DNA from: a virus
IMG/VR virus record: IMGVR_UViG_3300033145_003422
Span: 1 to 35,733 of that record
Length of the DNA stretch: 35,733 nucleotides
Reading direction: 5' to 3' (one strand)
Position 1 is the first letter of the stretch. Every line of letters begins with the position of its first letter. The notes under the pieces are model-generated. The model had not been told where the DNA came from. It ran no database searches and saw nothing but the letters and a program-made list of their open reading frames with translations. Shown here piece after piece: positions 1 through 11,211 of this stretch. The position numbers and the translations under genes are program-made.

Positions 1-1122
1 TCAATCCGGGAGATTTAACTCCGGGAGTTTGTTTATTGTTTTTCGGTGGAGCTTTGTGTTTGTGTGCTGGTAGATCTGCATGGTTGTTTCGGTTCGGGAA
101 TGGCCCATGATTTCCGAAGCCGATTTTAGATCGCCGTCTTTGCCTAAGACGGTTGTGGCGAAGCTGTGTCTGAAATCGTAGATCCTGAGTCGGCGGGTGA
201 TGCCGGCTCTTTTTTTTGCGGCACTGAACGCTTTTTTGATTCGTTTTATTGGTTTGTTTTGGTAGGTGATGATTTCAGGCGATGGTTTGCCTTTATCCTG
301 AATCTTCCATTTTTTCAAGAATTTTAATAATGACGGATGGATCGGCACGAGCCGGGATCGCGGGCCGCCTTTTCTGGATGATCTGATCTGGATGGTCTTT
401 GACCGGAGATCCACGGCGTCCCATTGTAGAGAAAGCAACTCTTTCTGGCCGGGACGGAGGCCGGTATAAAAGGATATCAGGATGCAGCGGCGGAGATGGT
501 CGCTCGAGTGTTTTAACAGGGCTTCGATTTCTTTGATGGTGGGCGGATCGATGATGGTGTCGTCGCGTTTGGGCTTTTCGTAATTGGCCAGGGGATTGTG
601 TTTGATGTATTCGCGTTTGACCGCCCAATTCAGGATGGCCATGATGTCGGTAACTTCCCGGTGAACGGTTGACCGGCTGATTTTTCGCGGATCTCCGTTT
701 TCGTCCAGGACTATTTTTCGTTTTTTGTTGCCTTCCGGACCGGTCCAGACCGTAACATTTTGTTTTAAGCGTTTGGATACATACTGGTCCATTCGCCGGG
801 GCGTGATCCTGATGGCCTGGAGGTGGCCTATCTCCGGAAGGATGATGCTTTCCAGTTTGTAATAGATGGCGTCCATGGACGTTTTTTCCATGATGCCGGC
901 TTTGGCCTGCAGGTAGTCTTCGGAAAGATTTTCGAATTTGATAGATTGGGCAGTTCGGGTGCGGCGGGTATAAGATCCGAGGTCCAGGTCATCGTTTCGT
1001 GCCCTGGCTTTTCGCTCGCCCTCTAAGCCCCGACCGAAATATTCGCGTGTTCGGCCGCATTTCTTGGATTCATCCCGATACTCTACAATCCAGCGGCCGT
1101 CTTTGAGTTGTTGGACTGCCAA
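1..1122 (-). CDS. int: Tyrosine recombinase / phage integrase
   Basis: A 373-aa tyrosine recombinase expected to catalyse site-specific integration and excision of the prophage. Visible parts are an N-terminal arm-binding region (about 1-60), a SAM-like core-binding domain (about 62-185) and a C-terminal catalytic domain. Catalytic positions are R223 (in GLRPGQ), probable K251, R318 (in YDFRHSFAT), H341 (in MGHS) and nucleophile Y351 (QIYQH). The usual first His of the HxxR box is Tyr (Y315), a substitution that occurs in this superfamily. The start is TTG at 1122 with no clear Shine-Dalgarno site. The 62-aa gene upstream stops only 3 nt before it, so translation may be coupled. The first 13 codons are duplicated about 1.07 kb upstream behind an ATG (2194), which suggests this TTG is a secondary start created by insertion of cargo. 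Confidence 0.96.
   Translation of the reverse strand: MAVQQLKDGRWIVEYRDESKKCGRTREYFGRGLEGERKARARNDDLDLGSYTRRTRTAQSIKFENLSEDYLQAKAGIMEKTSMDAIYYKLESIILPEIGHLQAIRITPRRMDQYVSKRLKQNVTVWTGPEGNKKRKIVLDENGDPRKISRSTVHREVTDIMAILNWAVKREYIKHNPLANYEKPKRDDTIIDPPTIKEIEALLKHSSDHLRRCILISFYTGLRPGQKELLSLQWDAVDLRSKTIQIRSSRKGGPRSRLVPIHPSLLKFLKKWKIQDKGKPSPEIITYQNKPIKRIKKAFSAAKKRAGITRRLRIYDFRHSFATTVLGKDGDLKSASEIMGHSRTETTMQIYQHTNTKLHRKTINKLPELNLPD
1084..1122 (-). repeat. 39-bp direct repeat, inner copy (5' end of integrase)
   Basis: This 39-bp segment covers integrase codons 1-13 and matches 2156-2194 at 37 of 39 positions in the same orientation. The two differences are one base within codon 10 and the start codon itself (TTG here, ATG in the outer copy). 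The copies lie 1072 bp apart and bracket three small genes. Confidence 0.93.
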
Positions 1123-1125
1123 TTT

Positions 1126-1314
1126 TTATTTCTGTAAGTTTGTATAGGATTTTATTATTGTTGCCTTAGCATCCTTTTTAATTATGCAGCGCTTTGCTTT
1201 GTGCTGTTTTGACTTTTGAACTAGCCTCCATTGTTTTTGTATCTGCGATTCAACCCTGATAGAGTCTCCTTCGATGCAATCACCTATATTTCTATAACAG
1301 GTCTTTTTTTTCAT
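1126..1314 (-). CDS. Small basic hypothetical protein (cargo gene 3)
   Basis: A 62-aa, strongly basic protein rich in Lys and Gln; I do not recognise it. Its ATG (1314) overlaps the stop codon of the upstream 152-aa gene (ATGA), a typical sign of translational coupling. Its own stop lies 3 nt before the integrase TTG. It is the last of three genes between the two copies of the integrase 5' end. The C-terminal half is almost all Lys, Ile, Ala and Thr with no predicted fold. It could be a real small protein or a readthrough spacer linking cargo translation to integrase. Confidence 0.5.
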   Translation of the reverse strand: MKKKTCYRNIGDCIEGDSIRVESQIQKQWRLVQKSKQHKAKRCIIKKDAKATIIKSYTNLQK

Positions 1315-1769
1315 ACGCCCTTTATTTTCCCTTCTGCCTCTAATTCTTCGCAGATTTCAAAGGCCATATCAAATTCTATACCAAGATTTTCCTCAATATC
1401 GGCTGGATCTATATTCTCTCCATCATGTTCCAGAAAATATTTGGCAATCTCAGCCTTGGCCTGATCGAAAGGAATATCTCTGATTTCAATATAATCATTC
1501 TCAATGTTTTCCATTTTTTCAGCGAGCTGCCCGACCATTTTTTCAATCTCCTCAATTTTTTGTTTCAGATTCTTTATTTCTTTTTTAAAGAAATCAACAG
1601 AAATCCTATCATAAAGTGCATCAGGTGATTTTGATTGTGATGGGGCCGGCAATTTATTTAAATCAGATAAATTATAATCTATCTGCGAAGGCTTTGCAAG
1701 CTTCCAATATATTTGAGGATTTTTATTGGCATCTTCAAATTTGTCCCAACCCAGACTTTTTGCAGCCAT
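1311..1769 (-). CDS. Coiled-coil protein with C-terminal winged-helix-like segment (cargo gene 2)
   Basis: A 152-aa protein of unknown function. I chose ATG 1769 (MAAKSLGWDKF) because AAAGG lies about 7 nt upstream, and the alternative start 45 nt earlier lies inside the preceding gene. Residues about 75-110 form a Lys/Glu-rich amphipathic coiled coil. The acidic C-terminal 50 residues (RDIPFDQAKAEIAKYF onward, ending in EELEAEGKI) look like a small winged-helix or HTH domain of the kind seen in DNA-binding or adaptor proteins. It lies 4 nt after the 115-aa gene and overlaps the 62-aa gene by 4 nt, so the three form one operon on the integrase strand. Function is not predicted; a lysogenic-conversion or defence role is only a hypothesis. 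Confidence 0.75.
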   Translation of the reverse strand: MAAKSLGWDKFEDANKNPQIYWKLAKPSQIDYNLSDLNKLPAPSQSKSPDALYDRISVDFFKKEIKNLKQKIEEIEKMVGQLAEKMENIENDYIEIRDIPFDQAKAEIAKYFLEHDGENIDPADIEENLGIEFDMAFEICEELEAEGKIKGV

Positions 1770-1773
1770 GGCA

Positions 1774-2121
1774 TTAACCTTTCTTTTCTTTTGCCTCTTC
1801 ATCTTCAAAGACATTTATCATGTTACTCAACCAGTCTCGAATTGCAATAGCGGTTTTTAAATCAAATACCAAAGAGGATTGAACAATGCGAACCACATCG
1901 CCGCCCACAATGACTTTCCCAGAATCACTCATTGATCCATCTTTTTTAATATTATGAGTAATTTCTAAGGGTATAGGGTGTCTTTCAGAATATGGGTGCA
2001 TATGTATTTCCCCTCGGGGAGTGACCCCTCCCCAAGCGCCGTTCACATAACAATCTTGGAGGTGATCGGGAATTACATATTTGAATTTAAATTTAGTCTG
2101 TTTCTTTTCTTTATCGGCCAT
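1774..2121 (-). CDS. DUF3467-like small protein (cargo gene 1)
   Basis: A 115-aa protein starting at ATG 2121, chosen because AGGGGG lies 5 nt upstream; a start 39 nt earlier would lack a ribosome binding site. The centre contains NGAWGGVTPRGEIHMH followed by YSERHPIP. The C-terminus (VRIVQSSLVFDLKTAIAIRD and an amphipathic helix) resembles the DUF3467-type fold, a beta-rich domain ending in a helix. The family is only tentatively recognised. The start overlaps the last codons of the 27-codon integrase-like peptide (2111-2194), so a ribosome finishing that peptide could reinitiate here. It is first in the three-gene cargo. Confidence 0.75.
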   Translation of the reverse strand: MADKEKKQTKFKFKYVIPDHLQDCYVNGAWGGVTPRGEIHMHPYSERHPIPLEITHNIKKDGSMSDSGKVIVGGDVVRIVQSSLVFDLKTAIAIRDWLSNMINVFEDEEAKEKKG

Positions 2122-2194
2122 AACACCCCCTTTTATTAAATTTATCTCTATATTGTACAATCCAGCGTCCGTCTTTGAGTTGTTGGACTGCCAT
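2111..2194 (-). pseudogene. Fossil or free-standing integrase N-terminus (27 codons)
   Basis: An open frame starting at ATG 2194, 3 nt after the repressor stop codon. It encodes MAVQQLKDGRWIV, identical to the integrase N-terminus, then QYRDKFNKRG, clearly homologous to integrase EYRDESKKCG, before ending in TAA inside the start of the 115-aa cargo gene. It is therefore a truncated second copy of the integrase arm-binding start, with nucleotide identity over 39 bp and residue-level similarity over about 23. It may be a relic of the original integrase start, or a translated leader that couples repressor-strand transcription to the cargo gene. Confidence 0.85.
2156..2194 (-). repeat. 39-bp direct repeat, outer copy
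   Basis: This is the partner of 1084-1122 (37/39 identical) and it begins with ATG. Beyond base 2156 the sequences diverge at DNA level, but the encoded peptide stays recognisably integrase-like for about ten more codons. This suggests two related but non-identical integrase alleles rather than a recent exact duplication. Confidence 0.93.
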
Positions 2195-2771: not shown

Positions 2772-3092
2772 ATGAACAATTGTAAATGTCCTGCTTGGAT
2801 AAAGTTTTTGGGAAAAATCTTCGGTCAAAACAAAACTGCTATCGATAGTCTTCAAAAGATTCTAAGCCATGCCAAAAACGGTCATAAAGATAAATTGCCT
2901 TATGTCATTTTTCTAAAAGAACAGAACATATTAAACGAATGCGGCACGGTCATTAACAAAATAACAAGATCCGAGAAAAAGGTTTTCTACAACCAATACA
3001 GGCAATGGTGCGAAAGCAACGGAAAACCTATTTTGGCCCGGAATCGTTTTTACGCGGTGCTTATGAGACAAGGCATTATATTTTCGGGATAA
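2772..3092 (+). CDS. Early protein with a D5 helicase C-terminal-like domain
   Basis: A 106-aa protein and the first rightward gene, in the place where Cro or an antirepressor often sits. The N-terminal part is unrecognised and has a CxC pair near the start. Its C-terminal 35 residues, including YRQWCESNGKP and ARNRFYAVL, closely parallel the C-terminal domain of the phage primase-helicase (8966-10753), which has YKKWCEEGKNRP and SRNRFYGQIL. In D5-type helicases this C-terminal region is a winged-helix-like nucleic-acid-binding module, so this protein may bind DNA or compete with the helicase. A GGTGAA element about 7 nt upstream supports the ATG. Confidence 0.75.
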   Translation: MNNCKCPAWIKFLGKIFGQNKTAIDSLQKILSHAKNGHKDKLPYVIFLKEQNILNECGTVINKITRSEKKVFYNQYRQWCESNGKPILARNRFYAVLMRQGIIFSG

Positions 3093-4678: not shown

Positions 4679-5154
4679 CCGAAAAAGAAAAAAGTACGAT
4701 TAGTTTGGATGAATTGGCAAAGGGTACGTTCCTGGAAGAACTGACAATGGTCGGATACATCGAACCCCAGGCTGTCTTTAATGGCGCGAAAGATGTCGAT
4801 TTAGGCGAAATGACCGACTTGGAAAAGCGGCTGTTTTCATTAAAGGCAACGTATGTAAAAGTTGTCGAACTCTTAGATGCTCAGATCAAGGATGCAACCC
4901 CGGGTGGTTATCATTCCTTGCAGTGCTGCAAGGACTTGGAAGTTAATCGTAGCGCTATGAACGCTATTGGATTCGCCTTAGGCGGAATATTGTGGACAGC
5001 TATCCGGGCGCGGATCAAACTACCTGTCGGGGTGAATATCGGCGTCAGAAAGGGATACCAGGTTGTCATGTTTGAGGAAAAAAATCCCTTAAACGATATG
5101 CTTGAATCTATAAAAAAAGCCTCTGGATTACATTTCATCCAAGTAAAAATTTAA
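4675..5154 (+). CDS. Conserved-looking hypothetical protein
   Basis: A 159-aa soluble protein with a strong ribosome binding site (AAAGGAGG, 8 nt). It has an acidic N-terminal half, a probable helical segment (DLEKRLFSLKATYVKVVELL), then AMNAIGFALGGILWTAIRAR, a helix near the centre that reads as a domain core, and a C-terminal strand-rich part (VGVNIGVRKGYQVVMFEE). I do not recognise the family. It is followed by an intergenic hairpin at 5209-5268. Confidence 0.7.
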   Translation: MTEKEKSTISLDELAKGTFLEELTMVGYIEPQAVFNGAKDVDLGEMTDLEKRLFSLKATYVKVVELLDAQIKDATPGGYHSLQCCKDLEVNRSAMNAIGFALGGILWTAIRARIKLPVGVNIGVRKGYQVVMFEEKNPLNDMLESIKKASGLHFIQVKI

Positions 5155-10828: not shown

Positions 10829-11211
10829 TTATACAACGTTATACACGTTATTATTTTTTTTCGTTTTTCCCGCTCCTCCTTTCCCTCCTCTCAGAAAATT
10901 ACTGTTCACTTGAAAGTGTCTCAAGTGAACATTAAATGATACAGGTGAACAAAAAAGGAACACTTTTTTGGCTAAAACTGTTCAGATTATAATGAATAAA
11001 AACAATTAATTAGAGGAATTTGAACACTTTGAACAACTTTTTTCAATTTATTTATAACTTCTAACGAAGAAAAAATATATATAAAGAATATTAGAAAAAG
11101 TTGTTCAAACTGTTCAGATCTTTCTCAGGCCGCATGAATCGGGAGTTTAGGGTGAACATTTTTACCCGAAAAAGTGTTCTAAAACTGTTCAGATTGCAAA
11201 AAAGATGTTCA
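10829..11211. other. Candidate phage replication origin with iteron-like motifs
   Basis: There are eleven TGTTCA/TGAACA motifs between 10903 and 11211 (starts at 10903, 10926, 10946, 10979, 11021, 11030, 11102, 11111, 11153, 11186, 11206). Three are part of the longer AAACTGTTCAGAT (10977, 11109 and 11184 regions). A perfect 11-bp inverted repeat TGTTCACTTGA/TCAAGTGAACA lies at 10903-10913/10921-10931. A perfect 15-bp inverted repeat TTTGAACAACTTTTT/AAAAAGTTGTTCAAA (11028-11042/11095-11109) flanks a 52-bp A+T-rich core suited to unwinding. Tandem DnaA-box-like TTATACAAC and TTATACACG lie at 10829-10837 and 10839-10847. It sits directly behind primase and helicase, in the largest gene-poor stretch (10754-11663). 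The rest of that stretch, 11212-11663, shows no gene and no strong motif. Confidence 0.72.

Follow-up and report, generated by a model that had tools for sequence, protein, structure and literature searches.

Genes and repeated integrase start at the repressor–integrase junction

The window, by which we mean the entire stretch of viral DNA analyzed (35,733 nt, positions 1 to 35,733 of IMG/VR record IMGVR_UViG_3300033145_003422), opens with a gene for a tyrosine-recombinase integrase (int). Upstream of it, on the same strand, three small genes (here g1, g2 and g3) separate int from a gene for a repressor-like helix-turn-helix protein (Table 1). The genes are closely packed, with gaps of 4, -4 and 3 nt in the order g1-g2-g3-int. 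The stop codon of int occupies positions 1-3, at the very start of the IMG/VR contig, which is probably a trimmed prophage edge. Adjoining the repressor gene in the opposite direction is a 106-aa ORF (2772-3092, plus strand) that resembles phage DNA primases over their C-terminal part (PHROG E 6.7e-8). Farther into the window, at 10958-11179, there are two nested inverted repeats, one of 27 nt at 89% and one of 30 nt at 87%.

Table 1. Coordinates and supporting evidence for the features at the repressor–integrase junction of the window.
Feature	Position	Strand	Evidence
int, tyrosine-recombinase integrase, 373 aa, TTG start, MAVQQLKDGRW...	1..1122	-	Pfam Phage_integrase E 2.7e-24; PHROG integrase 6e-55
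Inner copy of repeated int start	1084..1122	-	37/39 identical to 2156-2194
g3, 62 aa	1126..1314	-	Homologues in L014, L071 and L075-L077, 39-81% identical
g2, 152 aa, predicted coiled coil and C-terminal three-helix domain	1311..1769	-	Low-confidence AlphaFold model
g1, 115 aa, possibly DUF3467-like (weak)	1774..2121	-	3/17 family members match DUF3467, best E 0.005
Outer int-start remnant, 27-codon ORF	2111..2194	-	tblastn E about 1e-10 to int N-terminus; nhmmer E 9e-11
Outer copy of repeated int start	2156..2194	-	37/39 identical to 1084-1122
Repressor-like helix-turn-helix protein, 152 aa	2198..2656	-	Weak CI-type matches (PHROG transcriptional repressor 8e-4; Pfam Phage_CI_repr 0.018); position

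The 5' end of int is present twice. The two copies are offset by exactly 1072 bp, and weaker homology extends beyond the repeat to 75 nt at 81% identity (1055-1129 and 2127-2201), reaching about codon 23. A degenerate int-start pattern with up to two mismatches matched only these two sites in the window and none in dinucleotide shuffles of it. The outer copy keeps an ATG, 3 nt past the TGA of the repressor gene, and reads through 27 codons (MAVQQLKDGRWIVQYRDKFNKRGCYGR) to a TAA stop, overlapping the start of g1 by 11 nt. Joining the flanks by script at equivalent positions of the repeat yields an ATG-started integrase of 373 aa, again 3 nt past the repressor stop. The initial annotation had described the repeat, the open outer copy with its integrase similarity, the three coupled genes and the outcome of removing 1072 bp, and our analysis reproduced each of these.

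It had also pointed to the TTG start of the intact int and to the lack of a Shine-Dalgarno site. Both were seen: the TTG lies 3 nt past the g3 stop, and no Shine-Dalgarno-like motif precedes it in our scan. The TTG is peculiar to the window, the closest relative having ATG at the same place, and the missing motif is nothing special, since the same scan found none for 31 of the 46 relatives. A degenerate VQQLKDGRW pattern had no match in the viral_contigs set, a scan outside of which records very near the window may lie.

Relatives with and without the three genes

The closest relative that we found, IMGVR_UViG_3300033148_005531 (L014), carries the same g1-g2-g3 order in a 2144-bp stretch that is 78% identical to the window, together with an orthologous int (76% identical, ATG start) and a repressor unlike that of the window. 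Between its repressor stop and g1, beginning 5 nt past the stop, lies the sequence AAAACAATCTCAGCCCACCAACTAAAGAAGGGGTGTT, which aligns with the integrase starts of the group. In 2000 shuffles an alignment score this high came up once, and in 3990 windows of the L014 contig it did not come up. The trace is short, with a tblastn E value of only 0.056, and an nhmmer model of the int start did not pick it up; the score above is from a test of this trace by itself. We read it as the same relic as the outer copy of the window, with the start codon lost and an internal stretch deleted.

Since L014 has the same genes and, in the outer position, an int start that has decayed, we infer one event older than both phages, and a single insertion before the window and L014 split would be the simplest history. 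In the int tree, these two are grouped (100/100); the next clade is not resolved, and the clade with empty junctions is not placed as their sister.

The two copies in the window are not uniformly alike: they match at 35 of 36 positions over codons 2-13 and at 19 of 30 over codons 14-23, where the outer copy is closer to the int of L014 than to that of the window itself. At nine informative sites, the outer copy is window-like and then L014-like (6:0, then 0:3; Fisher p 0.012). This pattern suggests a later exchange between the copies, probably gene conversion.

Uninterrupted junctions occur among the relatives. In five viral contigs a helix-turn-helix protein lies directly upstream of int, at 33 nt (L096), 23 nt (L100), 5 nt (L101) and 21 nt (L126), or overlapping it (L097). 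A sixth contig (L107), whose int is the nearest to that of the window by tree path after L014, has a 4-nt junction; there the upstream gene, inside which the contig starts, was identified by eye. In all, about six relatives have an uninterrupted junction and more than 20 have other cargo at the site, with the repressors of the latter mostly read from translations and not tested individually. Among the phages found, none has the repressor of the window or of L014 directly on int. The genes between repressor and int are thus cargo (a moron), being extra genes in some phages and absent or different in others. The relatives do not all share the identical three genes with unrelated sequence in place of 2156-2194, and the proposal that a cargo block was inserted at the repressor–int junction, one of its ends falling in the int 5' end and int staying whole, gains further support from the same cargo and decayed outer int start in L014.

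The g1-g2-g3 operon is also found apart from the window and L014. It lies directly upstream of a distant int (39% identical) in L071, a distant g1-g2 pair lies upstream of int in L030, and the whole operon is present in three bacterial genomes (L075, L076 and L077). Neither L071 nor L030 has a remnant, and the fetched stretches of the three bacterial genomes contain no int-start match above background. The window g1 is 61% identical to that of L075, 47% to that of L071 and 30% to that of L030. Among the named phages of the phage collection, there was no match for the 2.66-kb region (blastn) or for int or g1 (tblastn).

Search for further integrase-start remnants

The initial annotation had proposed that such insertions rebuild the integrase gene each time and could be a general route of moron entry. 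We searched upstream of int with tblastn and with an nhmmer int-start model built without the window and L014, covering 207 kb at about 50 loci. A second int start was recognizable only in the window and, in decayed form, only in L014; other matches were weak and at scattered positions. More than 20 relatives carry other cargo with no int-start remnant, as do the distant g1-g2 pair and g1-g2-g3 operon of L030 and L071. These results do not support the proposal of repeated rebuilding.

A case can nevertheless be made for the conserved int start as a recurrent recombination anchor, at which each swap of repressor and cargo modules enters and rebuilds int, the window and L014 having been caught before the footprint was lost. 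The DNA identity of int starts averages 73% over codons 2-13 compared with 50% for the rest, one pair (L027 and L036) is 94% identical at the start and only 47% elsewhere, synonymous choice is raised (same-codon rate 0.516 against 0.434 expected), and the site holds a wide variety of cargo. However, the QLKDGRW residues of the start are nearly invariant, which explains most of the DNA identity, and the synonymous excess is modest. Since the outer copy of the window is the only clear one and the conservation of the start is mostly at the amino-acid level, we regard a general route as unlikely. We likewise rejected the idea that the repeat results from constraint on the int start at the DNA level, given the only modestly raised synonymous codon identity. 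What we document well is a single accident, and it does not show a general route.

Int-start matches in bacterial genomes of one phylum drew attention to two other loci. In a Desulfobacterales genome (L050, G001:C273:17000-27000), a fragment of approximately 20 codons of an int start lies at about 5006-5065, minus strand, after a gene read as HicA-like. At G356:C2:167741-168069 (L069 and L070), there are two integrase-type starts 86 bp apart, the first in a 100-aa frame and the second in one of 370 aa.

Origin of the relic and nature of the cargo

The history that we favor, at a probability of about 0.68, is one recombination event, illegitimate at about codon 23 of int and probably homologous at its opposite end, also within int, after which the copies exchanged sequence. 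In the ancestor of the window phage and L014, int would have lain immediately behind the repressor, as in some present relatives, and a segment with the g1-g2-g3 operon would have entered this junction by recombination. At the left end, an illegitimate join would have cut int at about codon 23 and fused it to the purine-rich leader before g1. This end appears to join unrelated sequences, in that integrase similarity fades past codon ~23, with g1 starting immediately after; judged by eye, the leader shows microhomology to an A-rich part of int, codons 20-22. At the right end, the whole int follows g3, and its simplest source would be an incoming phage segment in which the operon immediately preceded int. 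Because L071 has this very arrangement, homologous pairing at the right end is possible. L071 demonstrates that the donor type exists; the actual donor is another matter, and we found none for the cargo segment. The donor may even have had no int, because the window g1 is closer to that of L075 than to those of L071 or L030, in which case the duplication would need another cause. What remained of the old int, its first ~23 codons, would be a relic with no integrase function. In L014 this relic may later have lost both the start codon and part of its interior, and in the window it stayed alike to the intact copy over codons 2-13, probably through later gene conversion.

The near-identity of the two window copies over codons 2-13, the shortness of the L014 trace, and the MAVQQ that both window copies share and that is absent from the other aligned integrases could also reflect a recent duplication in the window lineage, with the likeness in the L014 intergenic region due to chance or a separate event. 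Yet the L014 trace sits exactly between repressor stop and g1 with a score that shuffled sequences rarely reach, and codons 14-23 of the outer copy favor the L014 int over that of the window; we therefore consider this reading improbable, if somewhat less so than a general route. The outer copy might instead have been kept for use, either as a binding site or as a short translated leader through which g1 is coupled to the repressor. An ORF that remains open for 27 codons, 3 nt past the repressor stop and overlapping g1, would suit such a role, but its L014 equivalent lacks an ATG as well as part of its sequence, which makes retention for function quite unlikely. An assembly artefact or chance repeat has little to recommend it beyond the source of the sequence, an IMG/VR virus contig that starts at the int stop codon. 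The divergence of the copies over codons 14-23, the lack of matches in shuffles, and the same gene order with a decayed copy on the separate L014 contig leave this explanation scarcely credible.

The favored event would share several elements with homology-facilitated illegitimate recombination (PMC3240628) and with the module-displacement model of the Vibrio T6SS (PMC5361080): one homologous and one illegitimate end, the gain of genes, and a residue of the old locus. In the Vibrio T6SS whole immunity genes are left (PMC5361080), whereas the window retains an int fragment of 23-27 codons, and its homologous end is inferred. Our literature search for a truncated integrase with a direct repeat and a moron found no published case. 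Passenger genes are seldom observed in the course of entering a temperate phage; here one such event could be partly reconstructed from a relic of the gene that was disrupted, from its decayed counterpart in L014 and from the empty junctions of other relatives.

Temperate phages with cargo between repressor and integrase have been described before; what is new is this footprint and a three-gene module that has no name. Lactococcal Sie genes sit between integrase and repressor, as do the extra genes of the window, and for some genes at that site protection against other phages is reported as demonstrated (PMC7693887). Unlike Sie modules, the window has a piece of the int start on the repressor side, a feature of which we found no report in the literature consulted. 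Lambda rexAB and genes 43-44 of Gordonia phage CarolAnn are defence genes expressed during lysogeny and located beside the repressor (PMC6426606). The window genes are similarly small and tightly linked to a repressor; cotranscription with the repressor and a defence effect are demonstrated for the CarolAnn genes.

Searches of Pfam, PHROGs, NCBIfam and PADLOC gave no function worth naming for g1-g2-g3 except the weak DUF3467 lead for g1, and comparison of g1 with PDB sequences gave no functional lead. AlphaFold models built from three-sequence alignments had mean pLDDT of 56 (g1) and 62 (g2). With regard to a transposon or integron-type cassette, no recombinase match was found among the cargo genes in the Pfam and PHROG libraries, and the cargo is flanked by integrase coding sequence. 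Homologues of g2 occur in L014, L071, L075-L077 and L030, and members of the g1 family occur in 38 of the 395 genomes from the phylum to which G001, the Desulfobacterales genome mentioned above, belongs. A role of the operon in defence or as a toxin-antitoxin system is a guess; having no named family in the libraries searched, g1-g2-g3 merits a functional test. Other small genes lie downstream of g1 relatives at six loci (L084, L085, L087, L089, L090 and L092), and in L085 a gene for a PemK-like toxin (Pfam E 5.7e-10) is found two genes downstream of the g1 relative.
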